Of a DNA stretch of 64,000 nucleotides, positions 19,242-39,168 are shown piece by piece. The notes below the pieces were generated by a model. That model was given only the letters and a program-made list of their open reading frames with translations. It did no database searches and was not told the DNA's origin. A program made the translations under genes and the position numbers. Every line of letters starts with the position of its first letter. The first letter of the stretch is position 1. This DNA is from Variovorax paradoxus (GTDB lineage Bacteria; Pseudomonadota; Gammaproteobacteria; Burkholderiales; Burkholderiaceae_C): assembly GCF_030811855.1 (NCBI RefSeq), contig NZ_JAUSRN010000001.1:372001-436000 (forward strand), given 5' to 3'.

Positions 19242-19405
19242 ACGTGGGGAACAGCTCAGGAAGAGAATGCGCGGCTTGAACCGGATGCATTCGGCGCTTT
19301 CGGCGGCTGGCGTGGAGGCTGGCATGCCCCGATGTTCGCGGGCCGCGGCGGCGCCATAAAGCGCTCGTACGGCACAGGGGCTCTCACCGGCCGCGAGATC
19401 GGTGA

Positions 19406-20302
19406 TTACCCTTGGAGACTCTCGATGAGCGCCGCAACTGCGCGGGGCTGCGGCGTCTTGCGCAGGGCGTAGATGTTCAGGACGCGGTCGGCCCATTCTT
19501 CCGCCAGCGGACGTCTGGCAAAGCGGTCGGTCCCCGCATAAGCCGTCACCGCGCTCCGAGGCACCACGGCGATGCCGAGGCCGGCCTCCACCATGCGGCA
19601 GACGGCGTCGAAGCTGCTGACGGTCACCTTCGGGTTGAAACGCTTGCCCAATGCCGTGGCGCGTTCGTTCAGCGACCGGTCCATCGCACCGCCCTGATGA
19701 ATGCCGACCAAAGGATATTCGAGCGCACGCGCGAACGTGATGGCCTGCAGGTCCGCCAGTTCGTGGCCCGCAGGCAGAACCACAAGCAAGGGGTCGGAGG
19801 CAAAGCGCCATGAATCCATGCCCGCCGGGACCGCAACATCGGCGCCCACACCAACGTCGGCGCGATCGTCCAGACAGGCGCGCAGCACGTCGCGGGTATC
19901 CTCCTCACGCAAGGCGACCTCCACGCCAGGGTATGCCTCCATGAAGCGGTGCAAGCGCTCAGGCAAAAACCCGATGACCGAGGACATGTTGGCATGAAGG
20001 CGCACGGTGCCCCGCACTTCGCCGCCTTCGCTCTGCACTTCGCGCAACAGGGCTTGCAGTTCATCGTCGAGACGTTCGCCGCGTGCCAGCACCAGCCGGC
20101 CTGCGTCGGTCAGCGCAATGCCACGCGGCGAGCGCACGAGCAACGGCGTCTCGAATGCATGCTCCAGATCCGCAATCCTGCGGCTCAATGCCGAAGGCGC
20201 GATGTTCTCCGCGGCAGCGGCACGGACGATGGAGCCGGCGCGAGCCGCCGCCACGAACAACCTGACGCTGTAGGAATCGATTCGACGGGTCACGGTCTTC
20301 AT
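19406..20302 (-). CDS. LysR-family transcriptional regulator
   Basis: A 298-residue LysR regulator. The start is ATG 20302 because the helix-turn-helix begins at once (YSVRLFVAAARAGSIVRAAA, APSALSRRIADLEHAFETPLL), whereas upstream codons look non-coding. The effector domain contains GFLPERLHRFMEAYPGVEV and LGIAVVPRSAV. It lies 164 bp upstream of the dehydratase-Bug genes on the same strand and 163 bp from the divergent tannase-like gene, so it may control either. Effector unknown. Confidence 0.88.
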   Translation of the reverse strand: MKTVTRRIDSYSVRLFVAAARAGSIVRAAAAENIAPSALSRRIADLEHAFETPLLVRSPRGIALTDAGRLVLARGERLDDELQALLREVQSEGGEVRGTVRLHANMSSVIGFLPERLHRFMEAYPGVEVALREEDTRDVLRACLDDRADVGVGADVAVPAGMDSWRFASDPLLVVLPAGHELADLQAITFARALEYPLVGIHQGGAMDRSLNERATALGKRFNPKVTVSSFDAVCRMVEAGLGIAVVPRSAVTAYAGTDRFARRPLAEEWADRVLNIYALRKTPQPRAVAALIESLQG

Positions 20303-20465
20303 CGGTGGGTGGACTGCAAGTGTGGCATAGAGCCTTGATGCGCCGCCTCCCACACTGCGGCCCCACGCGCCTCCTCGCAAGGCGCGGCAGAATGCGACCA
20401 CCAACACGCTTCCACTCGGTGTATTGACCCCGGATACGACCGATGTAGAAGAAAGAACTGGAGAC

Positions 20466-22178
20466 ATGATGAAGCGAATCTCTTTTCGGGCGCTCGCGCT
20501 CTCGGCCTTCGCCTTGTTGACCCTGGCCCTGTCGGCGTGCACCACGGTGCCGAATGCCGGTCAGCTCGCCGCCTCCTGCGCCAGCCTCGCGGGCCATGCC
20601 ATCGCGCCAGGCGCGATCGGGTTGCCCAGCGGCAAGGCCTCGGTCACCTCGGCCGTTCTCATGCCGGCCTCCGCTGCAACCGTGAACAGCGGGGCGTTCG
20701 TGCCGGCCCTTCCGCAGTTCTGCAAGGTCAGCGGCACCATCGCATCGCGCGACCCCGCGGCCCAGGCCATCAACTTCCAGTTGAACCTGCCGACCACCTG
20801 GAACGGCAAGGCGCTGCAGTACGGTGGCGGCGGCTTCAACGGGGTGCTGATCACCGGATTGGCGCCCTTGCGCGACGCAGCGCCGGACGACCCGCTGCCA
20901 GTCGCGCGGGGCTATGCGACCTTCGGCCAGGACTCCGGCCACCAGGCCTCCGCGTTCGCGCCCGGCGAGCCCGGCGCCTTCGCGATGAACGACGAGATGC
21001 TCGAGAACTTCGCCTTCGCCTCCTACAAGAAGGTGAAGGATACGTCGGTGGACATCATGCGCGCGTACTACGCGCGCCCCCCGCAGCGCATGTACTACTT
21101 CGGCGGCTCTGAGGGCGGCCGCGAAGGGCTGACGATGGCGCAGCGGTTTCCGGCGGACTACGACGGCATCGTCAGCGTCGTTCCCGTGATCAACTGGACT
21201 GGCCTCTTTCATGCCTTCGTGCGCAACCAGGTACCGCAACACGCGGACTGGTTGCAGCCCGAGAAAACAGCGCTCATCGCCAAGTCCACTTCCGCCGCGT
21301 GCGACGCGCTCGACGGGCTGGCTGATGGTGTCGTGAACAACTACATGGCATGCCAGGCCCGCGTGGATCTGCAGCCCCTGCGCTGCCCAGGCGGCAGTGA
21401 CGCAGGCGTGCACTGCCTCTCCGATGCCGAGCTGCGACTGATGCGCGCCATCCACTCGCCGTATGAGTTTTCTTTCCCCATCGCCAACGGCCTGACGGCG
21501 TATCCGCCATGGCTCTATGGGCACGAGGACAGCCTCGACGGTCCCTCCGCGCCCAGCATGGTGCGTTGGGTTTCCGGCACGGCGGCACCCGCGGCGCCGC
21601 CGGACGCCGCGCGCAATTCCACGCAATGGATCTATGGAAGCAACTGGATCCGCTATGCGATTGCGCGCGACAAGAACCACGATGTGCGCGGCTATCGCCC
21701 GGAGGATTTCCGTGACCGGGTGCAGAAGACCTCGGCGCTGATGGATTCCACGAACCCGGACCTGTCGGCCTTCTTCGCGCGCGGCGGCAAGCTGATCCTG
21801 CGCGAGAACGCCGCGGACCGCGCACAGAGTGCGCTCATGGGCATTCAATACCACGATGCACTCGTGGCGCGCCTGGGCGGCGCGGCGGCCGAAAGGTCGG
21901 TACGGCTTTACGTCTCACCGGGCTCGACGCATTCGGGCAACTCGCGCGCGGTTGCGGGCGGCCCGGCGGTGCCGACGATGGTGGACCTGCTCGACCCGCT
22001 GGACCGGTGGGTGAGCGCCGGCGACGCGCCCGCGAACGCCCTGGTGCAGGTCGTCAAGGCGCCCTTGCCGCCATTTGCCATGCAGGCCTCGCGCCCCATG
22101 TGCCGCTATCCGGGGTACCCGCACTACATTGGCGGCGACCGCGCGCAGGCGTCGAGCTATGAGTGCCGGCCTTCCTGA
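20466..22178 (+). CDS. Tannase/feruloyl esterase family lipoprotein
   Basis: A 570-residue member of the tannase/feruloyl esterase family. The N-terminal lipoprotein signal ends in LALSAC, so the mature protein should be anchored by Cys to the outer membrane or periplasmic face. The nucleophile is Ser215 in FGGSEGGREG, and the family segments PTTWNGKALQYGGGGFNG and YFGGSEGGREGLTMAQRFP are clear. It would release phenolic or aliphatic acids from plant esters. Two tandem ATGs (20466, 20469) are possible starts, with GGAGA just upstream. It is transcribed alone and ends in a hairpin terminator that overlaps its stop codon. Confidence 0.85.
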   Translation: MMKRISFRALALSAFALLTLALSACTTVPNAGQLAASCASLAGHAIAPGAIGLPSGKASVTSAVLMPASAATVNSGAFVPALPQFCKVSGTIASRDPAAQAINFQLNLPTTWNGKALQYGGGGFNGVLITGLAPLRDAAPDDPLPVARGYATFGQDSGHQASAFAPGEPGAFAMNDEMLENFAFASYKKVKDTSVDIMRAYYARPPQRMYYFGGSEGGREGLTMAQRFPADYDGIVSVVPVINWTGLFHAFVRNQVPQHADWLQPEKTALIAKSTSAACDALDGLADGVVNNYMACQARVDLQPLRCPGGSDAGVHCLSDAELRLMRAIHSPYEFSFPIANGLTAYPPWLYGHEDSLDGPSAPSMVRWVSGTAAPAAPPDAARNSTQWIYGSNWIRYAIARDKNHDVRGYRPEDFRDRVQKTSALMDSTNPDLSAFFARGGKLILRENAADRAQSALMGIQYHDALVARLGGAAAERSVRLYVSPGSTHSGNSRAVAGGPAVPTMVDLLDPLDRWVSAGDAPANALVQVVKAPLPPFAMQASRPMCRYPGYPHYIGGDRAQASSYECRPS

Positions 22179-22192: not shown

Positions 22193-23035
22193 TCAGGGGA
22201 GAAGTTCGAACTTGAGATCGGCCAGTGGTGTGACCTTTTCCTGGCGCGCCATCTTGTACTCGGTGTTGGGCCCGAGCCACTTGGCCCAGATCTTGTCGAG
22301 CTCGCCGGATTTTTCCAGCGCGTAGAGCGCGGCGTTGACCTTCGACAGCAGCACCGGCTCGTCCTTCTTCATGCCCACGCCAATGGGCTGAAGCACCATC
22401 GGCTCCGCGATCATCTTGAGCGCCACACCTTCGGTCTTCGACTGGTTGACCAGCTTGGTGATGGTCATCGTGTTCGCGACCATGCCGACCGACTTGTTCT
22501 GCTGCACCGCCATGAACGCCGATCCCGTGTCCTGGAAGGTCACCGGCTCCGAGCCGTTCATCTTGATCGACAGCTCCGAGGTCGAGCCCTTGGTCGAGCT
22601 CAGGCGCTTGCCCTTGAAGTCGGCCTTGCTGGTGCCCGGGTCGGAAGCCTTCACCGCCAGCATTTCCTTGGCCACGTAGTACGGGTCGCTGAACTGGATC
22701 TGGTCGCCGCGGCTCTTGGTGTAGGCCAGGTTGGCAATGGTCACGTCGACGCGGCCGAGCTTGACCTCGGGCACCCGCGCCTCCACCGACAGCGGCGTGA
22801 CCTTGGCCGTCAAGCCGAGCTCCTTGGCGAGCGCGTGGCACAGGTCGACGTCGTGGCCCACCATCTCGCGCGTCTTGGGATCAGGAGCGGCGAAGGGCGG
22901 CACGTCGGCGAAGGTGCCGCAGCGCAGTTCCTTGCGTTGGCTGATGTCGCTCCACTGGTCGGCGTGGGCCAGGAAAGGCGCGGCGCAAAAGCAGGCGCCA
23001 ATGGCGGCAAGACGGAAAGCGGTTCTGTTCGACAT
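22193..23035 (-). CDS. Polar amino acid ABC transporter substrate-binding protein
   Basis: A 280-residue periplasmic binding protein of the polar amino acid (HisJ/GltI, SBP_bac_3) family. A signal peptide ends near FLAHADQW; ELRCGTFADVPPFAAPD, GHDVDLCHALAKELGL, RVDVTIANLAYTKSRGDQI and SDPYYV are typical. The start is ATG 23035, with AGGAG 6-10 bases upstream. It is the last gene of the unit SDR-permease-permease-ATPase-binding protein. The ligand class is amino acid or a related amide; exact specificity is not visible. Confidence 0.9.
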   Translation of the reverse strand: MSNRTAFRLAAIGACFCAAPFLAHADQWSDISQRKELRCGTFADVPPFAAPDPKTREMVGHDVDLCHALAKELGLTAKVTPLSVEARVPEVKLGRVDVTIANLAYTKSRGDQIQFSDPYYVAKEMLAVKASDPGTSKADFKGKRLSSTKGSTSELSIKMNGSEPVTFQDTGSAFMAVQQNKSVGMVANTMTITKLVNQSKTEGVALKMIAEPMVLQPIGVGMKKDEPVLLSKVNAALYALEKSGELDKIWAKWLGPNTEYKMARQEKVTPLADLKFELLP

Positions 23036-23083
23036 GCTGGACTCCTGAGGAAATTCGAGGGGGATGAAGAAAGCGACGATCAA

Positions 23084-23854
23084 TCAGTGCGCGCGCAAGT
23101 CCGACAGGAAGCGCTGCGCGCGCGGATGCTGCGGGCTGGTGAAAAAGGTCTCGGGGTCGGCCTTTTCGAGAATGCGGCCCGCGTCCATGAACCAGACGCG
23201 GTCGGCCACCTCGCGGGCGAAGTTCATCTCGTGCGTGACGCACATCATGGTCATGCCGTCGTTGGCAAGGCCGCGCATGACCGACAGCACCTCGCCCACC
23301 ATTTCGGGGTCGAGCGCGCTGGTGGGTTCGTCGAACAGCATGGCGGGCGGCTCCATGGCCAGTGCACGGGCAATCGCCACGCGCTGCTGCTGCCCGCCCG
23401 AGAGCTGGGCCGGGTAGGCGCCGGCCTTGTTCGACAGGCCCACGCGCTCGAGCAGCTGCGCCGCCCGCTCCTTCGCCTCGGCCCGCTTCACGCCCAGCAC
23501 GCGCATGGGCGACAGCATGATGTTCTCCAGCACCGAGAGATGCGGAAACAGGTTGAAGCTCTGGAACACGAAGCCGATGCGGCTGCGCAGCTTGTTGAGC
23601 GCCGCGCTGCTCATCGGCGCATGGATGTCGTGGCCGTCGAACAGAAGCTGCCCCGACTTCACTTCCTCCAGACGGTTGACGGTGCGGATCAGCGTGGACT
23701 TGCCGGAGCCCGAAGGCCCGCAGACCACCACGACCTCGCCCTTCTTCACCTCGGCGTTGACGTCGGCGAGCGCCTGGTAGTCGCCATACCACTTGTTGAT
23801 GTTGGAGAACAGGATCATGGTGTCATCCCCTGCGGGATGTGGAACGGGGTTCAT
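23084..23854 (-). CDS. Amino acid ABC transporter ATP-binding protein (GlnQ/GltL-like)
   Basis: A 256-residue ABC ATPase. The Walker A is GPSGSGKST, the Q-loop [12 protein letters not shown], the signature LSGGQQQR, the Walker [13 protein letters not shown] and the H-loop CVTHEMNF. These match the GlnQ/HisP subfamily that energises polar amino acid importers. The start ATG 23854 is preceded by AAGGAGAC; an internal ATG at 23818 is less likely. It works with the two permeases and the binding protein encoded beside it. Confidence 0.93.
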
Positions 23855-23899
23855 GGATCTGTCTCCTTGTGTTCCTGTCGATGGCCGTCGAACGCAGCC

Positions 23900-24658
23900 T
23901 CACGGATTCGCCGCTACCGGAGGCGGCAGCGAGACACCGTCTTGGGATGCGTTCACGGAGGCGGCGCCGAGCCGCTTGTGTGCGATGCGCCGCTCCAGCC
24001 ATTGCGTGAGCTGCGTCAGGCTGAAGCAGACGACGTAGTACGTCATCGCCAGAATGAAGAACACCTGGAACGGCTTGGTCAGCAGCTGGTTGTTGATCTG
24101 GTTCGCCGCGAAGGTCAACTCCTGCACGTTGATCACGTAGCCCAGCGTGGTCTCCTTGATGGTGGAGATGAACTGGCTCAGCATGCTCGGCAGCATGTTG
24201 TAGAGCGCCTGCGGCAGGATCACGAACCACATGGTGCCCAGGTGGCTGTGGCCGAGCGCGCGCGCCGCCTCGGTCTGTCCTTTGGGCAGCGCCTGGATCC
24301 CGGCGCGCACCACCTCCGACAGGTAGGCGCCCTCGTAGATCACCAGCGTGCACAGCATGGTGGTGAAGCCGGACACGTCGCGCCCGATCAGGATCGGCAC
24401 CAGGAAGTAGACCCAGAGGATCACCATCAGGAGCGGCACGCCGCGCACCACGTAGACCAGCACCGTGGCCGGCCAGCGCAGCAGCCGCCAGGGCGACAGC
24501 CGCGCGAGCGCCAGCAGCACCGACAGTGGAAACGCCAGCACGATGCCCAGCACCGACAGGATCAGCGTGGCAACGATGCCGCCGAGCGGCCCGCTCGGAT
24601 ACTGGCCGACGAGCAGCAGCAGCCAGTTGTCGCGCAGGATTTCAAAGACACTGAACAT
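23900..24658 (-). CDS. Amino acid ABC transporter permease (GltK-like)
   Basis: A 252-residue inner-membrane permease of the HisM/GltK group. Several hydrophobic segments (GGIVATLILSVLGIVLAFPL, VPLLMVILWVYFLVPILI) surround the ATPase-contact loop EAARALGHSHLGTMWFVILP. The C-terminus ends in a hydrophilic tail. It starts 6 bp after the stop of the partner permease at 24665, so the two are translated together and likely form the heterodimeric pore. Confidence 0.92.
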   Translation of the reverse strand: MFSVFEILRDNWLLLLVGQYPSGPLGGIVATLILSVLGIVLAFPLSVLLALARLSPWRLLRWPATVLVYVVRGVPLLMVILWVYFLVPILIGRDVSGFTTMLCTLVIYEGAYLSEVVRAGIQALPKGQTEAARALGHSHLGTMWFVILPQALYNMLPSMLSQFISTIKETTLGYVINVQELTFAANQINNQLLTKPFQVFFILAMTYYVVCFSLTQLTQWLERRIAHKRLGAASVNASQDGVSLPPPVAANP

Positions 24659-24664
24659 GGCTTG

Positions 24665-25366
24665 CTACCTCGCTTGGGCGATGCGGTAGCGCCGCGACAG
24701 CCAGCCGCCCACCGCCATGATGAGCAGCGAACACACCAGGTACAGCACCGTCGCCATGCTGTAGGCCTCGAAGGTGCGAAAGCTCTGGCTCTCGATTTCC
24801 TTGACCGCATGGGTCAGCTCGGCCACGCCGATCGCCATGGCCAGGCTGCTGTTCTTGAACAGCGAGACGCTGTGATTCACCAGGGCCGGCACTGCATTGC
24901 GGATGGCCTGCGGCAGCATCACATGGCGCATCGAACCGATGTAGCCATGGCCGAGCGCGCGCGCGGCCTCGGCCTGCCCAGCCGGGATGGAGCGCAGGCC
25001 CGAGCGCAAGTCTTCGCTGAAATAGGCGGCTTGGCAAAGGCCGAGCGCGACGATCGAGAGAATCGTCTCCGCGTTGTGCGTCGACAGCCAGCCCTGCAGC
25101 GCATCGGGCAGCAGGCTGAAGATGCCGAAGTACCAGAGCATGAGCTGCACCAGCGTCGGCACGTTGCGGTGATAGGAAACGTAGCCGGCCACCACGCGCT
25201 CGGCCAGCCGGTTCGGCGTGAGGCGCACGACCAGCAGCACGACCGCCATGGCCATGGCCAGCAGCCAGGAACCGGCAGCGATCTTCAGCGTCTCCTGCAG
25301 TCCGTGCCAGAGCATCGCACCGAACTCCGGCTTCAGCAGGATCGCCAGCAGGTCGAAGTCCTTCAT
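24665..25366 (-). CDS. Amino acid ABC transporter permease (GltJ-like)
   Basis: A 233-residue inner-membrane permease with the EAA loop EAARALGHGYIGSMRHVMLP and hydrophobic helices such as WLLAMAMAVVLLVVRL. NVPTLVQLMLWYF is the usual permease segment of the polar amino acid family. It is the first transporter gene of the unit, 33 bp after the SDR gene. Together with the GltK-like protein it forms the membrane channel. Confidence 0.92.
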   Translation of the reverse strand: MKDFDLLAILLKPEFGAMLWHGLQETLKIAAGSWLLAMAMAVVLLVVRLTPNRLAERVVAGYVSYHRNVPTLVQLMLWYFGIFSLLPDALQGWLSTHNAETILSIVALGLCQAAYFSEDLRSGLRSIPAGQAEAARALGHGYIGSMRHVMLPQAIRNAVPALVNHSVSLFKNSSLAMAIGVAELTHAVKEIESQSFRTFEAYSMATVLYLVCSLLIMAVGGWLSRRYRIAQAR

Positions 25367-25399: not shown

Positions 25400-26152
25400 T
25401 CAGGCCTGCGGCGTTTCCGGCCGCGCGGTCGAGAGCCCGCCGGGCACCTGCAGCGTGGGCGTGATTTCCATGTGGCCCACGTTGACTGCAATGGGCGCCG
25501 CAATCGCGAAGGCGATGGCGTTTGCGATGTCTTCGGCCTGCGGCAGCTCGTAGCCTTCGACGAAGCGCTTATAGGTTTCTTCGGAGTCGCCATGCACGTG
25601 CGCGAAGATGTCGGTGGCCACGCGCCCCGGGCAGATCTCAGTCACCCGCACGCGCTTGCCGAAGACGTCGATGCGCAGCTGGCGCGACAGCATGCTCACG
25701 GCCGCCTTGGTCGCGTGATAGGTGCTGTTGCCGCCAAAGTTGTAGGCCGCGGCAATGGAGCTGATGTTGACCACATGGCCCCGGTCGCGCGCGGCCATGC
25801 CGGGTACCACCAGGCGGCACAGGTGCAGCACGGCGCGCAGGTTCACGTCGACCAGCAGGTCGATGCCATCGGCGTCGGCTTTGAGGATGGAGCCGGGGCG
25901 GTCCACGCCGGCGTTGTTGACCAGCACGTCGAACTCGACCTCCTGCGTGAGGCGGGTGATGCCGGCGAGGTCGCTCACGTCGATAGCGTGCGGAATGCAG
26001 CCGGTGCGCACGGCCAGTTCGCCCAGCTTGTCGGCGCTGCGCGCCAGCGCATGCACCTGAAGGCCTTCCTTGCAGAGGCGTTCGACGACGGCGGCGCCGA
26101 TGCCCGAGGAGGCCCCCGTCACCAGCGCGGTCTTGTAGTCAGAGAACGGCAT
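25400..26152 (-). CDS. Short-chain dehydrogenase/reductase
   Basis: A 250-residue classical SDR. The nucleotide site is TGASSGIGAA, the structural motif NNAG is present, and the catalytic set Ser (NISSIAAAYN), Tyr and Lys (YHATK) is complete. The sequence resembles YdfG/serine-type 3-hydroxy acid dehydrogenases (ICPGRVATDIF, VEGYELPQAEDIANAI). ATG 26152 is used; upstream codons are unlike the family. It is the first gene of the amino acid ABC unit and follows a conserved operator-like block at 26224-26261, so it likely acts on the imported compound or its oxidation product. Confidence 0.85.
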   Translation of the reverse strand: MPFSDYKTALVTGASSGIGAAVVERLCKEGLQVHALARSADKLGELAVRTGCIPHAIDVSDLAGITRLTQEVEFDVLVNNAGVDRPGSILKADADGIDLLVDVNLRAVLHLCRLVVPGMAARDRGHVVNISSIAAAYNFGGNSTYHATKAAVSMLSRQLRIDVFGKRVRVTEICPGRVATDIFAHVHGDSEETYKRFVEGYELPQAEDIANAIAFAIAAPIAVNVGHMEITPTLQVPGGLSTARPETPQA

Positions 26153-26316: not shown

Positions 26317-27084
26317 CTACCGGTCCGACTGCTTCGAGATGGGCACCACGCGCCCCGCCTGCTCGACCACGCCGCGCACGGCGCGGGCCAGGTCCACCGC
26401 ACCGGGCGTGTCGCCGTGCAGCAGGATCGAATGCGCGCGCATCGGGATCTTCCGGCCGCTGTAGCTGGTGACCGTGCCCTCCTCCAGCAACTGCCGCACA
26501 CGCGCCAGCACCGCACCCTGGTCATGGATCACCGAACCGGGCAGCTTGCGCGGTACCAGCAGGCCGTCGTCGTCGCAGGCGCGGTCGGCCAGGAAGGTGG
26601 TGCGCACGCGCAGGCCGCAGCGCGCGGCGGCATCCTCGATGGCGCGGCTGGCGGACGAGCTGACGATGAGCGTCGGATCGAAATCCGCCACCGCGCGCAC
26701 CAGCGGCTCGGCGAACGCGGCGTCGGCTGCGGCCATGTTGCCGAGCGCGCCGTGAAAGCTCATGTGCGTCATGCGGTGGCCGGCGGTGCGCGCCATGCCG
26801 TCCAGCGCGCTCAGCTGGTAGAGCACGTAGGCGACGAGTTCCTTCGGCTCGATCTGCATCGGCCGGCGGCCGAACCCGAGCAGGTCGGGAAAGCCCACGT
26901 GCGCCCCCACATCGACGCCCCGCGCACGCGCCATGCGCACGGTGCGATCCATGATGACCGGATCGCCCGCATGGAAGCCGCAGGCCACGTTGGCGGAAGA
27001 AACGATGTCCAGCAGCGCCTCGTCCTCGCCCATGCGCCAGGGGCCGAAGCCTTCGCCGAGGTCCGCGTTCAGGTCGATGTCCAT
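26317..27084 (-). CDS. pxpA: 5-oxoprolinase subunit A (LamB/YcsF family)
   Basis: A 255-residue LamB/YcsF family protein, subunit A of the ATP-dependent 5-oxoprolinase PxpABC, which opens the lactam ring of 5-oxoproline. It starts with the family signature MDIDLNADLGEGFGPW and contains SANVACGFHAGDP, GAHVGFPDLLGFGRR and SILLHGDTPGAV. AGAAGGA lies upstream of the ATG. It is the last gene of the accB-accC-pxpB-pxpC-carrier-pxpA unit. Related enzymes may act on other lactams or cyclic amides, so 5-oxoproline is the best but not the only candidate substrate. Confidence 0.9.
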   Translation of the reverse strand: MDIDLNADLGEGFGPWRMGEDEALLDIVSSANVACGFHAGDPVIMDRTVRMARARGVDVGAHVGFPDLLGFGRRPMQIEPKELVAYVLYQLSALDGMARTAGHRMTHMSFHGALGNMAAADAAFAEPLVRAVADFDPTLIVSSSASRAIEDAAARCGLRVRTTFLADRACDDDGLLVPRKLPGSVIHDQGAVLARVRQLLEEGTVTSYSGRKIPMRAHSILLHGDTPGAVDLARAVRGVVEQAGRVVPISKQSDR

Positions 27085-27104
27085 GGGGATCCTTCTCTCT
27101 TTCG

Positions 27105-27539
27105 TCAGAGGGGGTGAAGCTCGACCAGCGGCGTGCCGTAGCCGACCGCAAGGCCGTCGGCCGCGTGGACGCCGTCGACGATGCCGGCCTGCGGCGCGGT
27201 CACGGGCAGCAGCAGCGGGCCGATCTTCAACAGGCCGACGGGTTGGCCGGCTTCTACGCGCTCACCGGTGCGCACCAGTGGCGCGGCGGCTAGCGGATGG
27301 CTGTGCAGGAACACGCCGACCGAGAGCGCGTGAACGGATACGAGTTCGCTCTCGACCTCGGTCACCTCGGCGGGCAGTTCCACGATGTCGTCGCCCTGCC
27401 GGCCGAGGCGCAGCATGCCTTGCGGCGTGCGCAGTTCGAGCAAGCCGATGTCGGTGTCTGCCAGCCAGGCGGCCAGCTGTGGGGTACGCAGTGCGACGTC
27501 CTGCATTTCAGCTTCTTCCGAGGCAAGGAGAGGCTTCAT
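27105..27539 (-). CDS. Biotinyl/lipoyl-domain carrier protein lacking the modified lysine
   Basis: A 144-residue protein with an AccB-like layout: an N-terminal helical part (LAAWLADTDIGLLELRTPQG), a linker, and a C-terminal biotinyl/lipoyl-like hammerhead domain (LVRTGERVEAGQPVGLLKIG). Aligned with the AccB at 30564, the biotin site EAMKM is replaced by GPLLL, so no biotinyl-lysine is visible. A lysine occurs four residues earlier (LLKIG). It starts one base after the pxpC stop (TGAgATG) and lies 20 bp before pxpA, firmly inside the unit. A structural or tethering role rather than carboxyl transfer is suggested; this is inference. Confidence 0.7.
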   Translation of the reverse strand: MKPLLASEEAEMQDVALRTPQLAAWLADTDIGLLELRTPQGMLRLGRQGDDIVELPAEVTEVESELVSVHALSVGVFLHSHPLAAAPLVRTGERVEAGQPVGLLKIGPLLLPVTAPQAGIVDGVHAADGLAVGYGTPLVELHPL

Positions 27540-27540
27540 C

Positions 27541-28536
27541 TCAGTGCCGTCCTGCAGATGCAGGCGCACCGCGGTGCAGTTCCACCATGCGCGCCACCTT
27601 GTCGAGCCAGGCGCGCACTTCATCGAGGGCGGCCAGCGCTTCGTCCCAGGTGGTTTCGATGAAGCGCACGCGGCTGCCGATCGGTGCCTGGCCGAGGCGC
27701 CACATGTCGGCCTCGATGACCGTGCCGAACTTGGGGTAGCCGCCCGAGGGCTGGGCATCGCGCATCTGGATGATGGGCTGCCCGCTGTGCGGCACCTGGA
27801 TCACGCCCGGCACGATGCCGTGCGAACGCAGCTCCATCGGCGCGATGGGACGCAGCGCCTCTCCCTCCAGGCGGTAGCCATAGCGGTCGCTCTGCGAGGT
27901 GATCTTCCATTCGCCGGCCCAGAAGGCGGCGCGCGACGCGGGCTCGAAGCCCATGTATTCGGCTGCGGGCAAGACGCGCACCGCCGCCACGCCATCCCTC
28001 TGCAGCGGCAATGCGAGCGCGGGCGGCACCAGGCCGAAGCCGGTCTTGCACGCAGCGCCCGCGCCTGCCGCGCGCAGCACGTCGCCGCGGCGCAGCGCGC
28101 GCCCTTCGTGGCCACCGAAGGCGCCGCGCAGCTGCGTGCTGCGCGAACCCAGCACTTCGGGCACGTCGACCCCGCCGGCCAGGCACAGCATGGCGCGGCT
28201 GCCGCGCTGCGCGCCGCCTTGCGGAAGGCCCAGCGTCAGCACCTGTCCCGCGCGTGCCTGGTGCACCCACCAGGGCAGCAGCGGCTGATCGTCCAGCCGA
28301 GCCGCGCAATCGGCGCCAGTCAGCGCAAATGCGCAGTCCTCGCCGAAGCGCACCTTGAAGGGAAACACCGGCACTTCGATGGCCGCCGCATCGAGCGCAT
28401 TGCCCAGCAGCAGGTTGCCGGCCGCGAGCGCCAGGTTGTCCATGGCGCCCGAGGTGCCGACGCCCCAGCGCAGGCTGCCGTTGCGCCCCAGGTCCTGCAC
28501 GGTGGCGAGCGCGGCCGAGGAAAGCACTTCGATCAT
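27541..28536 (-). CDS. pxpC: 5-oxoprolinase subunit C / biotin-dependent carboxyltransferase family (KipA-like)
   Basis: A 331-residue AHS2-domain protein: [52 protein letters not shown] and GYPKFGTVIEADMWRLGQ are family signatures. In urea amidolyase the AHS1 and AHS2 domains together form the carboxyltransferase half; in Bacillus the homologs are KipI and KipA, and in PxpABC they act on 5-oxoproline. The start ATG 28536 overlaps the pxpB stop by ATGA. It should form a complex with PxpB. Confidence 0.92.
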   Translation of the reverse strand: MIEVLSSAALATVQDLGRNGSLRWGVGTSGAMDNLALAAGNLLLGNALDAAAIEVPVFPFKVRFGEDCAFALTGADCAARLDDQPLLPWWVHQARAGQVLTLGLPQGGAQRGSRAMLCLAGGVDVPEVLGSRSTQLRGAFGGHEGRALRRGDVLRAAGAGAACKTGFGLVPPALALPLQRDGVAAVRVLPAAEYMGFEPASRAAFWAGEWKITSQSDRYGYRLEGEALRPIAPMELRSHGIVPGVIQVPHSGQPIIQMRDAQPSGGYPKFGTVIEADMWRLGQAPIGSRVRFIETTWDEALAALDEVRAWLDKVARMVELHRGAPASAGRH

Positions 28537-29201
28537 CGGACGATGCCCTCCACGCGGAAACGGATCATGTCGCCCGGCTGCAGCGCCGCCGGCGGGTCTT
28601 GCGCGGGATCGAAGAAAGACATCGAAGTGCTGCCGATGGTGTTCCAGCCGCTGGGCCCGGCCGAGGCCGACACGCCGGTCTGCGCGCCACCGATCGACAC
28701 CGCGCCGCCCGGAATGCTCAGCACCGGCACCTTGCGCCGCGGCGTGGCGATGCGCGCGTCCATGCCGCCCAGGTAGCAGTAGCCCGGATGGCTGCCGAGC
28801 GCATACACCGGGTAGAGCGGCGCGCTGTGCAGCTCGACGATCTGCTCGATGCTGAGGCCGGTGTGGGCCACCACGTCGGCCATGTGCGGACCGCCCGCGC
28901 CGCCGTAGACCACGGGCAGCTCGACCACTCGGCCTTCCCGCGGCAGTGCGACGGCCGCGTCCCACGCATCGCGCAGGCGCGCCTCCAGGGCTTCGAGCGC
29001 GCCGAGGCCGCGCGGCGGACGCAGAAAGGTCAGCATCAGGTTGTTCATGCCCGGCACGGCTTCGCGAATCTCCGGCCAGGCCTGCGCCTCGTGCGCCAGC
29101 GCCCAGATGCGTTGCTGCGAGTTCAGGTTCATCTCGCCGGGCGCCTCGAAGAGCAGCGCGGTCGTGCCCAGCAGGCTGAGGGATGGGCGCTGCGCGATCA
29201 C
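28533..29201 (-). CDS. pxpB: 5-oxoprolinase subunit B (AHS1/KipI family)
   Basis: A 222-residue AHS1-domain protein partnering PxpC. Signatures are LELPVVYGG-type sequence ([19 protein letters not shown]), [16 protein letters not shown] and [17 protein letters not shown]. The start is GTG 29201, which overlaps the accC stop as GTGA, the only start giving tight coupling. With PxpC it forms the AHS1-AHS2 heteromer, equivalent to the carboxyltransferase domain of urea carboxylase. Confidence 0.92.
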
Positions 29202-30550
29202 GCTGCGTTCCTTTGCTGCAGCCAGCGTTCGAGATGATGGATGTCCACGCCGCCAACGGCAAAGCCCTCGTCGCGCAGCAGTTCGCGATGCAGCGGCACG
29301 TTGGTGGCGATGCCGTCGATGCGCATCTCGGCGAGCGCCAGGCGCATGCGGTCGAGCGCATCGGTGCGCGTGGCGCCGTGCACGATCAACTTGGCGATCA
29401 TCGAGTCGTAGTAAGGCGGCACGCGGTAGCCGGCGTTGGCATGCGAATCGACGCGCACGCCGAAGCCGCCCGGCACCTGCCAGCCGGTGATGCGGCCGGG
29501 CGCGGGCGCAAAAGTGTCGGGGTTCTCGGCGTTGATGCGGCACTCGATCGAGTGGCCCTGGCACCGCACCTCGCGCTGCGCCAGCGAAAGGCGCTCGCCG
29601 CGCGCCATGCGCAACTGCTGCTGCACGATGTCTACCCCGGCGGTCATCTCGGTCACCGGGTGCTCGACCTGCAGGCGGGTGTTCATCTCGATGAAATAGA
29701 AGGCGCCCTTCTCGTAGAGGAACTCGAAGGTGCCGACGCCGCAGTAGCCGATCTGCCGGCAGGCAGCCGCGCAGCGCTCGCCCACCTCGGCCATCAGCGC
29801 GTCGTCGATGCCGGGCGCCGGCGCCTCCTCGATCACCTTCTGGTGGCGGCGCTGCAGCGAGCAGTCGCGGCTGCCCAGCCACACGGCATTGCCGTGGCTG
29901 TCGGCCAGCACCTGGATCTCGACATGGCGCGGGTGCAGCAGGAACTTCTCGATGTAGACCTCGGGGTTGCCGAAGGCCTGGCGCGCTTCCTCGCGCGTCA
30001 ATGCCATCGCCTCCAGCAGCGCCGCCTCGTCGTGCACCACGCGCATGCCGCGCCCGCCGCCGCCGCCCGCCGCCTTGACGATCACTGGGTAGCCGATCTC
30101 GCGGGCGATGGCCTGCACGGCGGCCGGGTCTTCAGGCAGCCCTTCGTCGGGCCCCGGCACGCAGGGCACGCCGGCCTTGCGCATCGCGCGCTTGGCCGAA
30201 ACCTTGTCGCCCATGGTGCGGATGCAGGCGGCGCTGGGGCCGATGAAGACCAGGCCGGCCTCTTCCACGCGCGCGGCAAAGCCCGCGTTCTCCGACAGGA
30301 AGCCGTAGCCCGGATGGATGGCCTGCGCCCCGCTGACTTCGGCGGCGAACAGGATGGCGGACTGGTTCAGGTAGCTCTGCCCCGGCGCGGAGGGCCCGAT
30401 GCACAGCGCCTGGTCGGCCTGCGCGACGTAGCTGGCTTCGCCATCGGCCTCGGAATGCGCGACCACGGTCCGCAGGCCCAGGCCGCGGCAGGCGCGCAGG
30501 ATGCGCAAGGCAATCTCGCCGCGGTTGGCAATGAGGACGGTATCGAACAT
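29198..30550 (-). CDS. accC: Biotin carboxylase subunit (AccC-like)
   Basis: A 450-residue biotin carboxylase, which carboxylates carrier-bound biotin using ATP and bicarbonate. It starts [20 protein letters not shown] and has the ATP-grasp glycine loop [32 protein letters not shown] and [14 protein letters not shown], all expected. Full length for the family. It lies 13 bp after accB and overlaps pxpB. A second, housekeeping AccC is probably elsewhere, since this copy is embedded in a lactam/amide-type operon with an AHS1-AHS2 carboxyltransferase-like pair. Confidence 0.92.
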
Positions 30551-30563
30551 CGCGCGGCCTTCC

Positions 30564-30998
30564 TCAAGCGAAGCGGAACAGGGGCTGCCCCGCATCCACT
30601 TCCTGGCCCGAACGCACCAGCACGGCCTGCACGGTGGCGGCGGCGTCGGCGCGGACTTCGTTGAACATCTTCATGGCCTCAATCACGCAGAGCACCTGCC
30701 CGGCCTCGACGGCCTGACCCGGCTGCACGAAGGGCGGCTCGCCGGGGGCGGGCTGCAGGTGCACCACGCCGTAGAGCGGCGCGAGGCATTCGGCCGCGGC
30801 GGCTGCCGATCGCGCCGGTTCTGCGGGCATCGCGGCGGGCCCCTTGCGCGCAGCAGCCGGACGCCGCGCGGCGGGCGCGGCCGCCAGTGCCGACTGCTTC
30901 ACCAGCCGCAACGTGCTTCCGTCTTCGCTGTACTCCAGCTCCGCCAGGTCCGAAGCGGCGAGTGCGTCGATGAGCGTCTTGATCTGTTCCTGCTTCAT
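30564..30998 (-). CDS. accB: Biotin carboxyl carrier protein (AccB-like)
   Basis: A 144-residue biotin carboxyl carrier protein. The N-terminal helix-rich part ([20 protein letters not shown]) is followed by an Ala/Pro-rich linker and the biotinyl domain, in which Lys110 of [11 protein letters not shown] is the biotinylation site. The start ATG 30998 begins the typical AccB N-terminus. It is the first gene of the unit and follows the conserved operator block at 31100-31137. It should carry carboxybiotin between AccC and a carboxyltransferase, here perhaps PxpBC. Confidence 0.92.
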
Positions 30999-31145: not shown

Positions 31146-32084
31146 TTACGACAGCGCGGCGAGACCGGGTTCGGGCGTGGCCGCGAAGGTGCCGGCGAGG
31201 TCGACCACCAGCTCGAGCAGGATGCTCTTCACCGCCTGCGCCGGCTCCGAAAGCGGCAGGTGGTCCGACTGGCACAGCGCCAGCGGCGCCTCGATGACCG
31301 GTTCGACGATCTGGAATTGCCAGGCACCGCAGGACGCCACCACTTCACGCGCCATCGACGCCGGCAGGATGGTGGCGCCCAGCCCGTCGGCAATGGCCGC
31401 CGTCAGGGTGAAGGCCGATTCGATCTCGGCCACCACGCGCGGCACCATGCCCGCACGCACGAAAGCCGCATCGACCAGCTTGCGCACCACGTTGTAGGGG
31501 CGCGGCAGAAAGAGCTCGATGTCGCGCAGGTCGGCCAGCTTCACCGGCTGCGCCGGCGCGGGCATCGCGGCCGGCCCCACCAGGAACAGCGGCTCCTTGA
31601 GCAGCGGCTGGAAGCTCAGGCCATGGATCGCCTTGTCGCCGTAGAGCACGGCCAGGTCCATGCGGCCGTTCATGATGAGCTCGCTCAGCGTGGTGCCGTA
31701 GTTCTCGTTCAGGTAAAGCAGGATGCCGGGGTGGCGGGCGCGCACAGTGCGCAAGAGCGGCAGCGAAAGCGCCGAGGCCGCCGTGCCGGGCGCAAGACCG
31801 ACCGACACCTGGCCCGAGAGCCCTTCGCCGGCCGCTTCCATGTCCACGCGCGCCTGCTCGCACTGGCGCAGGATGATCTGTGCATGCCGGTACAGCACCT
31901 TGCCGGCCTCGGTGGGCGTGACGCCGCGCTTGGTGCGCACGAGCAGCTGCTGGCGCACCTCGCCCTCGAGCGTGGCAAGTTGCTGGCTCAGCGCCGGCTG
32001 GGCGATGAAAAGAACCTCGGCCGCCTGCGTCAGGCTGCCGATGTCCACGATCTTCACGAAATATTTGAGGCGCCGCAGGTTCAC
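31146..32084 (-). CDS. Nac-like LysR-family regulator
   Basis: A 312-residue LysR regulator strongly resembling the nitrogen assimilation control protein Nac: MNLRRLKYFVKIVDIGSLTQ and AAEVLFIAQPALSQQLATLE, then RTKRGVTPTEAGKVLYRHA, and GLAPGTAASALSLPLL in the effector domain. The start is GTG 32084, preceded by GAGGG; the upstream TTG at 32102 is less likely. Nac homologs bind ATA-N9-TAT, and three such sites lie in the promoter regions of the nearby units (26246, 31122, 32150), including its own. It probably responds to nitrogen status or to the substrate of this locus. Confidence 0.85.
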   Translation of the reverse strand: MNLRRLKYFVKIVDIGSLTQAAEVLFIAQPALSQQLATLEGEVRQQLLVRTKRGVTPTEAGKVLYRHAQIILRQCEQARVDMEAAGEGLSGQVSVGLAPGTAASALSLPLLRTVRARHPGILLYLNENYGTTLSELIMNGRMDLAVLYGDKAIHGLSFQPLLKEPLFLVGPAAMPAPAQPVKLADLRDIELFLPRPYNVVRKLVDAAFVRAGMVPRVVAEIESAFTLTAAIADGLGATILPASMAREVVASCGAWQFQIVEPVIEAPLALCQSDHLPLSEPAQAVKSILLELVVDLAGTFAATPEPGLAALS

Positions 32085-32135
32085 GCCTTGTCCCTCAAGC
32101 AAAAGCCGAGCCTAGCACTGCCCCTGCACGGCAGG

Positions 32136-32165: not shown

Positions 32166-32247
32166 CGACCAGTGAAAAGTCGTCTTGGCCTCGCCTGTTC
32201 GATCTGCGTACCGTTCGGTCCATGCAATCCCAGACACAGGAAGTCAT

Positions 32248-33456
32248 GTGACCACGTCCCGCATTGCCGCCCGCGTGCGGCGCATCAAGCCCTCGCCCAG
32301 CACATCGGCCGCCGACCGGGCCAACGAGCTGCGCCGCCAGGGCAAGTCGATTGTGAACCTGGTCGTGGGCGAGCCCGACTTCGACACGCCGCCCCACGTC
32401 CGGCAGGCCGCGGCCGCTGCCATCGAGCAAGGCGCGACGCGCTACACGCTCATGGCCGGCACGGTGGAACTGCGGCAGGCCATCGTCGCCAAACTCGAAC
32501 GTGAGAACGGCCTGCGCTATGCGATGAACGAGATCATCGCCACGAGCGGCGCCAAGAGCGCGATCTACAACGCCTTTGCGATCACGCTGGAGCCGGGTGA
32601 CGAGGTGATCATTCCCGCGCCCTACTGGGTGTCGTACCCCGACATGGTCCTGGCCTGCGAAGGCACGCCGGTCAGCGTGGCCTGCCCCGAAGCCAACGGC
32701 TTCAAGCTGACGCCCGCGCAGCTGGAGGCCGCGATCACGCCGCGCACGCGCTGGCTGCTGATCAACTCGCCCAGCAATCCGACCGGTGCCAGCTACACGG
32801 CTGAGGAATACCGCGCGCTCGCCGAGGTGCTGCAGCGCCATCCGCAGGTGATGGTGATGACCGACGACATCTACGAGCACATCCGCTTCGACGGCGAGGC
32901 GACGCCGCATCTGCTTGCGGTGGCGCCCGCGCTGCGCGAGCGCACGCTGGTGGTCAACGGCGTCTCGAAAACCTACGCAATGACGGGCTGGCGCATCGGC
33001 TATGCGGCCGGCCCGGCCGACCTGGTCAAGGCAATGGACACGCTGCTGTCGCAGTCCACCGGCAACTGCTGCTCGGTGAGCCAGGCGGCCGCCGCGGCCG
33101 CCTTGAACGGCGACCAGGGCTTCGTGGCCGAGAGCGTGGCCGTTTACAAGCAGCGCCGCGACCGCACGCTGGCGCTCATCAACGACATTCCCGGTCTGCG
33201 CTGCATTCCGCCGCCCGGCGCCTTCTACCTCTACATCCACTGCGGCGGCCTGATCGGCAAGACCACGCCGCAAGGCAAGCGGCTGGAAGAAGACGGCGAC
33301 GTGGTGATGTACCTGCTCGAAAGCGAAGGCGTCGCCCTGGTCGCGGGCACCGCCTATGGACTGTCGCCCTACTTTCGTCTCTCGATCGCCACCGGCATCG
33401 AGACGCTCGAAGAAGGCTGCGCGCGCATCGCGCGGGCCGTGGCCGCCCTGCGCTGA
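32248..33456 (+). CDS. Class I pyridoxal-phosphate aminotransferase (aspartate aminotransferase-like)
   Basis: A 402-residue fold-type I aminotransferase. The PLP lysine is in NGVSKTYAMTGWRIGY; NSPSNPTGASYT and TDDIYEHIRFDG are the usual PLP-contact motifs, and FRLSIATG holds the carboxylate-binding Arg. It resembles the bacterial Asp/aromatic aminotransferases of the I-gamma group. The start is GTG 32248, with CAGGAAG upstream; the overlapping ATG at 32246 stops at once. Divergent from the Nac-like regulator and followed 27 bp later by an RraA-type gene, it probably removes the amino group from a product of the same catabolic route. Confidence 0.88.
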   Translation: MTTSRIAARVRRIKPSPSTSAADRANELRRQGKSIVNLVVGEPDFDTPPHVRQAAAAAIEQGATRYTLMAGTVELRQAIVAKLERENGLRYAMNEIIATSGAKSAIYNAFAITLEPGDEVIIPAPYWVSYPDMVLACEGTPVSVACPEANGFKLTPAQLEAAITPRTRWLLINSPSNPTGASYTAEEYRALAEVLQRHPQVMVMTDDIYEHIRFDGEATPHLLAVAPALRERTLVVNGVSKTYAMTGWRIGYAAGPADLVKAMDTLLSQSTGNCCSVSQAAAAAALNGDQGFVAESVAVYKQRRDRTLALINDIPGLRCIPPPGAFYLYIHCGGLIGKTTPQGKRLEEDGDVVMYLLESEGVALVAGTAYGLSPYFRLSIATGIETLEEGCARIARAVAALR

Positions 33457-33483: not shown

Positions 33484-34155
33484 ATGCCCTACAAAGCCAT
33501 CCGCAAGAACCCGTCGGCCGCACCGGTCGCTCCCGACATCCTCGCCGCACTGCGGGAGATCCCCGTGGCCGCGCTGAGCGACAACATGCATCGCAACATC
33601 GGCAGCACCGGCCTGCACCCCTACCACCGCCCGATGGCCAGGACCATGGCGGGCACGGCCGTCACGGCGCGATCGCGCGGGGGCGACAACCTCACGTACC
33701 TTCGCGCCCTCGAGTTCTGCCGGCCCGGCGACGTGCTGGTGATCGATGCCGGCGGCGACCTCAACAATGCGGTGGTGGGCGGCATCCTCTCGTTCTACGC
33801 CGCGCACATCGGCGTCGTGGGCGTGGTGATCGACGGCGCGATCCGCGACGTGGCCGAGGTCCGGGCGCGCGAGTTTCCGGTCTATGCCCGCGGCGTCACC
33901 CATCGCGGCCCCTACAAGGACGGGCCCGGCGAGATCAATGTTCCGGTGTCGGTCGGCGGCATGGTCGTCAATCCCGGCGACATCGTGGTCGGCGACCAGG
34001 ACGGGCTGATGGCTTTCGCGCCGGACGAAGCCGCGTTGCTGATCGAAAAGGCGCGGGCGCACCTGGCGACGGAAGCGGAAACGATCCGGGCGATGAAGGA
34101 AGGCCGCTGGGATCGCGCGTTCATCGATGCGCTCGAGGCGCGCTGCGCCAACTGA
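33484..34155 (+). CDS. RraA-family protein (HMG/CHA aldolase or oxaloacetate decarboxylase-like)
   Basis: A 223-residue RraA-like protein. The fold is shared by 4-hydroxy-4-methyl-2-oxoglutarate (HMG) aldolase, oxaloacetate decarboxylase and the RNase E inhibitor RraA. Residues typical of the enzymes are AALSDNMHRNIGS, GDVLVIDAGGDLNNAVVGG and VVIDGAIRDVAEVR (the divalent-metal RD pair), then NPGDIVVGDQDG. AGGAAC precedes the ATG. It is paired with the aminotransferase, so cleavage or decarboxylation of the resulting 2-oxo acid is the best guess. Confidence 0.82.
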   Translation: MPYKAIRKNPSAAPVAPDILAALREIPVAALSDNMHRNIGSTGLHPYHRPMARTMAGTAVTARSRGGDNLTYLRALEFCRPGDVLVIDAGGDLNNAVVGGILSFYAAHIGVVGVVIDGAIRDVAEVRAREFPVYARGVTHRGPYKDGPGEINVPVSVGGMVVNPGDIVVGDQDGLMAFAPDEAALLIEKARAHLATEAETIRAMKEGRWDRAFIDALEARCAN

Positions 34156-38403: not shown

Positions 38404-38431
38404 TTCAATCGCCTGGTTTCAATCGCCTGGT
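38404..38431. repeat. 14-bp tandem duplication across the TerC-family stop codon
   Basis: TTCAATCGCCTGGT occurs twice head to tail (38404-38417 and 38418-38431). The second copy contains the last codons and the stop of the TerC-family gene; the first lies in the 25-bp gap to the convergent DUF3422 stop. Confidence 0.8.
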
Positions 38432-39168
38432 ATATGCGGCGGGTGCAGTTTCACCGCCTTGGCCGCTTTCTTGCGCATCCGGATATTCAGCATTTCCACG
38501 GCCACGGAAAAGGCCATCGCAAAGTACACGTAACCCTTGGGCACGTGGTGATCGAAGCCCTCCGCGACAAGCACGACACCCACGACCACCAGGAAGGCCA
38601 GCGCCAGCATCTTGATGGTGGGATGGTTCGAGACGAAGCGCCCGATGGGGCCGGCGAACAGCATCATCAGCAGCACGGAGGCAATCACCGCAGCGATCAT
38701 GATGCGCACGTCGTCCACCATCCCGACCGCGGTGATGATCGAGTCCAGCGAGAACACCATATCGACCAGCACGATCTGGAGCATCACGGAGGTGAGGGTC
38801 GCCTTGGCTGCGCTGGATTTCTGCTCGTGCTCTCCCTCCAGCGATTGGTGAACCTCGGTCGTGCTCTTCCAGATGAGGAACAGGCCGCCCAGGATCAGGA
38901 CCAGGTCTCGCCCCGATATTTCTTGATTGAACACCGAGAAAAGCGGAGCGACCAGGCCAACGATCCAGGCCAGAATCAGCAACAGGCCGATCCGCATGAA
39001 CATGGCCAAGACCAGGCCCACACGTCGCGCGAACTCGCGATTGGCGGGGGGCAATTTGTCGACCAGGATGGCGATGAAGATGATGTTGTCGATGCCAAGG
39101 ACCAGCTCGAGTGCCGTCAAGGTAGCGAAGGCGATCCAGACCTGAGGGTCCGTCAAGAGTTCGAGCAT
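38419..39168 (-). CDS. TerC-family integral membrane protein
   Basis: A 249-residue TerC-family protein with about seven hydrophobic segments. The family motifs ALELVLGIDNIIFIAILVDK near the N-terminus and LVDMVFSLDSIITAVGMV in the middle carry the conserved Asp residues thought to coordinate metal. TerC relatives (Alx, YgbE/YceF type) export Mn2+ or act in metal and pH stress. No tellurite genes are nearby, so general metal homeostasis is more likely. A 14-bp tandem repeat spans its stop. Confidence 0.88.
   Translation of the reverse strand: MLELLTDPQVWIAFATLTALELVLGIDNIIFIAILVDKLPPANREFARRVGLVLAMFMRIGLLLILAWIVGLVAPLFSVFNQEISGRDLVLILGGLFLIWKSTTEVHQSLEGEHEQKSSAAKATLTSVMLQIVLVDMVFSLDSIITAVGMVDDVRIMIAAVIASVLLMMLFAGPIGRFVSNHPTIKMLALAFLVVVGVVLVAEGFDHHVPKGYVYFAMAFSVAVEMLNIRMRKKAAKAVKLHPPHIPGD

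Follow-up and report, generated by a model that had tools for sequence, protein, structure and literature searches.

A conserved operon of biotin-carboxylase and 5-oxoprolinase-type genes with a lysine-less carrier paralogue in Variovorax paradoxus: a possible lactam-opening machine

Introduction

We begin by asking what task could bring the genes of a biotin carboxylase (BC) into an operon of the 5-oxoprolinase type. The operon lies on the minus strand, at 26317-30998, of a 64,000-nucleotide stretch of the Variovorax paradoxus genome (the window), and it carries accB-accC-pxpB-pxpC-carrier-pxpA in that order, as a first-pass annotation made from the letters alone had claimed and as the open reading frames, start codons and family searches confirm. 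That annotation took the genes for a urea carboxylase split into separate chains. We find instead a conserved set of genes (the cassette) of other descent, in which the second carrier cannot hold biotin, and we lean towards a biotin-dependent machine that opens lactams. The six genes are:

30564-30998, minus strand: accB, 144 aa; EAMK motif present; Biotin_lipoyl 64.7 bits; BCCP 109 bits against a cut-off of 115.2
29198-30550, minus strand: accC, 450 aa; Biotin_carb_N, CPSase_L_D2 and Biotin_carb_C; accC equivalog 668.9 against 626.5 bits
28533-29201, minus strand: pxpB, 222 aa; GTG start; CT_C_D 206.4 bits; TIGR00370 196.1
27541-28536, minus strand: pxpC, 331 aa; CT_A_B 290.6 bits; PxpC_5OPro equivalog 302.6 against a cut-off of 500
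27105-27539, minus strand: second (dummy) carrier, 144 aa; Biotin_lipoyl weak, 31.6 bits; AccB paralogue of full length that lacks the biotin lysine
26317-27084, minus strand: pxpA, 255 aa; LamB_YcsF 308.7 bits; LamB/YcsF-type lactam-opening subunit with S109, G115 and L221

The genes had been described as overlapping, which applies to two junctions out of five (accC/pxpB and pxpB/pxpC, 4 nt each); the other three are gaps of 13 nt (accB-accC), 1 nt (pxpC-carrier) and 20 nt (carrier-pxpA). AccC, above its equivalog cut-off, is a biotin carboxylase with the ATP-grasp fold, and AccB has the biotinylatable lysine (EAMK) of the carrier in a three-component biotin-dependent carboxylase. PxpB scores above the PxpB equivalog TIGR00370, and its AlphaFold model (mean pLDDT 86.6) has E. 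coli YbgJ as the best match in the Protein Data Bank (PDB). PxpC is far under the PxpC_5OPro equivalog cut-off; PxpA is above two subfamily models and under all three equivalog models.

Results

Conservation of the cassette

Is this gene order a chance neighbourhood? Genome contigs were searched with a PxpC alignment and the best 80 of 568 loci were kept, by PxpC similarity alone; 61 of the 80, each longer than 19 kb, are the long loci to which the conservation counts refer. The hosts among the best 80 loci are Variovorax, Cupriavidus, Burkholderia, Paraburkholderia, Caballeronia, Pseudomonas, Bradyrhizobium, Microvirga, Methylobacterium and others, and the cassette spans three classes (alpha-, beta- and gammaproteobacteria). 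Variovorax supplies the closest named relatives of the window PxpC. The survey of co-occurrence in this order, which the first-pass annotation had proposed, gives AccB and AccC in 60/61 long loci, PxpB, PxpC and PxpA in all 61, and the second carrier in 60/61. The sole long locus without intact AccB, AccC and carrier (L187) is in a metagenome bin and has broken fragments of all three. The cassette is not a chance neighbourhood; it is conserved and functionally coherent. No description of it was found in the open-licence papers searched.

The same linkage can be approached from the carboxyltransferase (CT) genes. We took stretches of about 12.8 kb around 100 CT_A_B genes outside urea carboxylases, which are most of such rows among the matches listed (G218, G296, G035 and G266 were left out). 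A BC gene occurs in 32 of these 100 stretches, and a pyroglutamyl-peptidase-like (pcp) gene without BC in only 9. Over its 6.2 Mb the window genome has six BC matches that score above 300 bits, from which the chance per stretch is estimated at about 1%, so that the linkage of BC and CT_A_B exceeds chance. When the second carrier is searched for in 300 genomes of the same taxonomic order, the window itself is the only match above 34 bits, the remaining listed matches resembling ordinary AccB or longer biotin enzymes; the cassette is therefore sparse in this draw.

A carrier without the biotin lysine

The most unusual part of the cassette is its second carrier, which we call the dummy carrier. 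Both cassette carriers were aligned with the housekeeping AccB and the biotin column was scored; over the 80 loci the AccB row is absent for five and the dummy-carrier row for one (L187). Lysine occupies this column in 76/76 rows of the cassette AccB, as it does in the housekeeping AccB; it is found in 0/85 rows of the second carrier, which have Pro, Gln, Val, Glu and others there. The window protein has a Lys three residues before the column, where most relatives have Gln or Arg. Gly75, His81 and Pro82 are each conserved in 99% of 75 dummy-carrier rows. Since the match between the dummy-carrier and AccB profiles spans 140 columns including the N-terminal part (pairwise E-value 1.5e-24), the protein is no stray lipoyl domain. 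The model of the protein (mean pLDDT 88.5) best matches the biotinyl domain of E. coli BCCP (1bdo, rmsd 1.0 over 75 columns), followed by the Arabidopsis BCCP1 domain. The first-pass annotation had listed the gene as a carrier. As a second biotin carrier it is rejected by the missing lysine, and it is, judging from these alignments, a full-length AccB paralogue unable to hold biotin.

Together, the lysine-less column, the AccB profile match and the BCCP fold make the dummy carrier a BCCP homologue without the biotinylation lysine. In this respect it is like plant BADC: these are BCCP homologues that lack the biotinylation motif and whose genes accompany those of active BCCP and BC; they glue BC to BCCP and are said to be unique to the plant enzyme (PMC11926652). 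The plant proteins belong to plastid acetyl-CoA carboxylase, whereas the cassette dummy is bacterial and stands beside PxpBC.

A second lineage of dummy carriers is found in another gammaproteobacterial family, where one locus (L082) has accB-accC-pxpB-pxpC-pxpA together with a lysine-less AccB-like gene. Among 20 loci of this family, 13 (L306-L316, L320, L324) have such a gene, with Thr, Ser, Ala or Gly in the biotin column and, in several, adjoining pxpA; the other 7 have an ordinary AccB. The profile of these lysine-less genes matches that of the cassette dummy carrier over 139 columns.

Descent of the parts

Where do the parts of the cassette come from? In a FastTree tree of 100 biotin carboxylases, all 34 cassette AccC sampled fall in one clade (support 0.992) whatever the class of the host. 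This clade lies inside one with the housekeeping acetyl-CoA-carboxylase AccC of beta- and gammaproteobacteria (0.995), in which the housekeeping group itself is unsupported (0.0). Because the other AccC of four alphaproteobacteria-like cassette hosts fall elsewhere in the tree, the cassette AccC moves together with the rest of the cassette, and because it groups with acetyl-CoA-carboxylase AccC, the cassette AccBC is by origin a recruited copy of the fatty-acid type. The earlier statement that this is not a fatty-acid AccBC copy merely adjacent to pxp genes survives as to linkage (60/61 loci) and the separate clade, and has to be given up as to origin.

Two further AccC clades comprise loci with a gene order like that of S. 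aureus (11, plus L300 from another locus) and loci of a fused BC-BCCP type (15), so that linkage of BC genes to PxpBC-type genes occurs in three or more distinct AccC clades. Judged from the trees, similar machines were assembled more than once from different parts. Two of the fused-type pxp loci (L064, L087) adjoin pcp, which makes it quite possible that in other lineages 5-oxoproline is the substrate of biotin-linked PxpABC.

In the PxpC tree (131 rows) the cassette and L059 together make up a clade (0.96) nested in a larger one with the 5-oxoprolinase-type PxpC (0.996), a group of 20 rows set by PxpBCA order and similarity, and the two urea carboxylases group with the PxpC of S. aureus-like order (0.943) and not with the cassette. 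A residue comparison, made by alignment of groups and numbered in the window proteins, bears on the same point. Position 155 of PxpB aligns with K1605 of the K. lactis urea amidolyase (KlUA), the likely general base of the urea carboxylase CT (PMC5770610). It is Arg in 85/85 cassette rows, as also in the 5-oxoprolinase-type and fused-type rows, and Lys in the S. aureus-order rows and the urea carboxylases. Urea carboxylase ancestry, and with it the claim of a split urea carboxylase by descent, is rejected by the PxpC tree, the AccC tree and the loss of this lysine.

Split urea-carboxylase CT genes were already pointed out in 2011, without a function (PMC3199775). The S. aureus operon pxpB-pxpC-accB-accC-pxpA, reported as fatty-acid plus amino-acid genes, also holds PxpBC, AccBC and PxpA in one operon (PMC11315280). 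The loci of S. aureus-like order (L035, L036, L038-L040, L042, L046, L054, L056, L058, L091), grouped by gene order and not by the sequences of S. aureus itself, differ from the cassette in having K at 155 and one AccB with lysine, with no dummy carrier detected. Their PxpBC, which falls with urea carboxylase in the tree and shares its lysine, would be a better candidate for a true split relative of that enzyme.

Other copies in the genome and changed residues of the presumed pocket

Could the cassette simply be the 5-oxoprolinase or the acetyl-CoA carboxylase of its host? A genome-wide profile search finds two CT_A_B genes and two LamB/YcsF genes in the window genome. The second set forms a compact operon pxpB-pxpC-pxpA followed by a pcp-like gene, without accBC (genome G000, contig C3, locus L013, 10193-13332; the pcp-like gene was named from its sequence, not via a family search), and this operon is probably the ordinary 5-oxoprolinase. 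A housekeeping accB-accC pair is found on a different contig, next to prmA- and aroQ-like genes (neighbours named by eye), and its AccC is 65% identical to that of the cassette. These two being the only CT_A_B matches genome-wide, the search yielded no urea carboxylase. The cassette is therefore distinct from both the ordinary 5-oxoprolinase and the ordinary acetyl-CoA carboxylase of the cell, and because the canonical pxpBCA-pcp locus and the housekeeping accBC sit elsewhere, this copy has another job.

Residues presumed to line the pocket point the same way. PxpA 109 is Ser in 83/84 cassette rows and Lys in 85/85 others (5-oxoprolinase-type 17/17, S. aureus-order 10/10, fused-type 15/15, other 43/43), and PxpA 221 is Leu in 82/84 and Cys in 85/85 others. 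PxpB 160 is Val, Ser or Ile in 84/85 cassette rows and Arg in 98/98 others, two urea carboxylases included. PxpB 137 is Ser in 84/85, with Phe in 96/96 others and Asp in the two urea carboxylases; PxpB 178 is Ser in 81/85 and Tyr in 87/98 others, the Tyr being kept in both urea carboxylases. The remodelled residues in the window PxpB are S137, V160, S178 and S184. They are taken to line the pocket because they are invariant elsewhere. One locus (L034) is an exception, with AccBC and the dummy carrier present, yet with PxpA K109 and PxpB R160 kept. Since PxpB and PxpA have lost residues that are invariant in the other groups sampled, the cassette substrate is probably neither 5-oxoproline nor urea, and the loss of the PxpA Lys and the PxpB Arg suggests, as far as sequence can tell, a substrate less acidic or bulkier than 5-oxoproline.

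Neighbouring genes

The SDR oxidoreductase, amino acid ABC transporter, aminotransferase and RraA-type gene that had been noted beside the operon are borne out by family searches:

31146-32102, minus strand: NAC-type LysR regulator directly upstream of the operon; NCBIfam nitrogen assimilation regulator NAC 497.7 against a cut-off of 309
25400-26152, minus strand: SDR oxidoreductase (adh_short), downstream of the operon
22193-25366, minus strand: polar amino-acid ABC transporter of four genes; GlnQ/EhuA-, EhuC/D- and LAO-binding-like families
24665-25366 and 23900-24658, minus strand: transporter permeases, EhuC/D-like
23084-23854, minus strand: transporter ATPase, GlnQ/EhuA-like
22193-23083, minus strand: transporter binding protein, LAO-binding-like; true start perhaps slightly inside
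32224-33456, plus strand: aminotransferase, divergent; PRK06107 'aspartate transaminase' 734.8 bits against a cut-off of 617
33484-34155, plus strand: RraA-like / hydroxy-oxoglutarate-aldolase-type protein; PRK06201 306.8 bits

These neighbours are kept as well: NAC and the aminotransferase in 60/61 long loci, the SDR in 61/61, each part of the transporter in 58/61 and the RraA-like gene in 42/61. The binding protein, ATPase and permeases are all under the cut-off of every equivalog model searched, which assigns no substrate to the transporter. Farther out in the window, frames at 17331-19811, 20424-22178 and 38419-39168 resemble, by eye, aconitase-family, tannase-like and TerC-like membrane proteins respectively.

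Discussion

The proposed machine

We turn to what the cassette does. The analysis establishes which genes are present and how widely they are conserved, that the second carrier has lost its biotin lysine, that the lineages are separate, that residues of PxpA and PxpB have changed and that the genome has a second 5-oxoprolinase locus. From these we infer carboxyl transfer, a substrate class (lactam or amide) and a role for the dummy carrier. The reading that we favour, with some reserve, is a biotin-dependent machine that opens a lactam (or cyclic amide) in an imported nitrogen compound, built from AccBC, PxpBC and PxpA with the dummy carrier as an assembly subunit. AccC would use ATP and bicarbonate to load CO2 onto the biotin of AccB, PxpB-PxpC would act as the carboxyltransferase and pass the carboxyl on to the substrate's amide nitrogen, and PxpA would open the activated ring and free an amino acid, which the aminotransferase, SDR and RraA-type protein may feed into central metabolism. 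The dummy carrier, a non-biotinylated AccB-like subunit, would assemble or dock AccC-AccB on PxpBC much as BADC does in plant acetyl-CoA carboxylase. As substrates, substituted 5-oxoprolines and other lactam amino acids with a 2-oxo acid cleavable by an RraA-type aldolase are guesses.

That PxpBC would use carboxybiotin is argued from the homology of its CT domains and from a precedent, PDB entry 9yx5. The title of this entry describes the M. smegmatis long-chain acyl-CoA carboxylase complex 'with MSMEG_0435-MSMEG_0436 bound'; the entry also holds the AccA3 alpha subunit, and the partner chains are named allophanate hydrolase subunits 1 and 2. As in our proposal, a PxpC-PxpB pair is physically bound to a biotin-carboxylase complex, to judge from the title and chain names. 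The entry differs from the cassette in that BC-BCCP is one chain, shared with the acyl-CoA carboxylase, and the PxpB is, by its sequence signature, of the fused BC-BCCP type. The conserved AccBC-PxpBC-PxpA linkage, the cassette AccC clade, the repeated BC-PxpBC linkage in at least three clades and 9yx5 together support the favoured reading, and to this extent the first-pass proposal of a biotin-dependent lactam or amide carboxylase stands; what is weakened is any strict need for a dedicated AccBC.

Points against the proposal

The main point against comes from cassettes without accBC. Seven out of 198 genomes from one gammaproteobacterial family encode a PxpB of the cassette type (67-100% identical to the query), each together with a second, canonical PxpB at about 40%. 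Their cassettes (L059, L288-L293) keep PxpB, PxpC, PxpA, the regulator and the aminotransferase, with no accBC nearby, and this speaks against a strict requirement for a dedicated AccBC. The dummy carrier is retained in 6 of the 7 (not in L292); alignment was used to check the biotin column in five of them, and that of L290 was checked by eye. At E <= 1e-60, the AccC matches in these genomes are one gene of the acetyl-CoA carboxylase (ACC) type each and long urea-carboxylase-like frames; G407 has in addition one S. aureus-type AccC, and G393 carries a urea carboxylase gene some 1-5 kb away from its cassette. In the PxpC and PxpA trees L059 is nested with L089 and L096, which makes it simpler to suppose that accBC was lost and the dummy carrier retained. 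Such cassettes would then either draw on the housekeeping AccBC, in the way that 9yx5 draws on AccA3, or work without biotin.

Further points weigh on the same side. PxpABC is assumed to phosphorylate 5-oxoproline without biotin, the step being assigned to PxpBC (PMC13274462). Arg155 replaces K1605, as it does in the biotin-unlinked 5-oxoprolinase-type PxpB. In the PxpA tree the cassette PxpA does not join the 5-oxoprolinase-type PxpA, and since this placement departs from that of PxpC, the cassette subunits have mixed histories. Finally, four alphaproteobacteria-like cassette genomes have no separate canonical PxpC among the matches listed, so that 5-oxoproline could be the substrate there.

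A bolder and more tentative form of the proposal takes the cassettes without accBC into account: a bacterial BADC-type subunit may dock AccC-AccB on PxpBC to give a heteromeric, biotin-dependent lactam carboxylase-hydrolase that acts on a new substrate, the dummy may be a more faithful partner of PxpBC than the dedicated AccBC, and the lineages without accBC may plug in the housekeeping AccBC.

Alternative explanations

Could the cassette open a lactam without biotin? PxpBC would then phosphorylate the substrate and PxpA open it, with AccBC and the dummy carrier only regulating or supporting the reaction. The phosphorylation assumed for PxpABC (PMC13274462), the seven genomes with a cassette without accBC and the Arg in place of K1605 all favour such an enzyme. 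We nevertheless consider it doubtful, as AccBC is retained in 60/61 long loci, BC-PxpBC linkage recurs, the 9yx5 complex exists, and a shared housekeeping AccBC could serve the version without accBC.

A second 5-oxoprolinase acting on the same substrate, whether biotin-dependent or not, is thought quite unlikely. Prokaryotic 5-oxoprolinase PxpABC, whose mutants in P. protegens attach more weakly to roots (PMC13390462), has homologues of PxpB, PxpC and PxpA in the cassette, with PxpC inside the same clade, and the two fused-type BC-linked loci mentioned above adjoin pcp. The cassette differs in adding the linked AccBC and the dummy carrier, in a PxpC far under the equivalog cut-off and in the changes K109S in PxpA and R160V in PxpB; moreover, the window genome and the seven genomes with cassettes lacking accBC each have another PxpB of the canonical type.

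A split urea carboxylase working on urea or a simple amide is very improbable. Urea amidolyase (K. lactis 3VA7, 5I8I) shares the set of BC, biotin carrier and CT_A_B/CT_C_D domains, and a related operon of A. baumannii, mumTLUHC, is tied to urea use and combines allophanate-hydrolase-like and biotin-carboxylase genes (PMC5050338). The cassette, in contrast, has separate chains, CT and BC parts of other descent and no allophanate hydrolase domain in its six proteins, and besides the K1605 equivalent it has lost R160 and Y178, which the two urea carboxylases compared retain. In A. baumannii MumC was needed and a mutant of the CT-like mumH still used urea; that operon also has an NRAMP transporter (PMC5050338), and the loci compared with it here, called mum-type by resemblance, have fused genes and no dummy carrier detected.

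That AccBC is a spare acetyl-CoA carboxylase copy merely beside a 5-oxoprolinase, as its 65% identity to, and grouping with, the housekeeping type might suggest, is hardly credible given its fixed position inside the pxp operon with a 4-nt overlap in 60/61 long loci of three classes and an AccC clade of its own regardless of host class.

Implications

If the favoured reading is true, amide or lactam bonds would be opened by biotin N-carboxylation in a machine made of acetyl-CoA carboxylase and 5-oxoprolinase parts. To our knowledge, this route of bond opening has so far been described only for urea. It would account for the repeated occurrence of accBC next to pxp genes in many bacteria, and it would correct the reading of pxp-adjacent accBC copies as fatty-acid genes. 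The dummy carrier would be a bacterial counterpart of the plant BADC subunits, which are said to be plant-only (PMC11926652), and, being part of a single operon, its role is open to a clean test.

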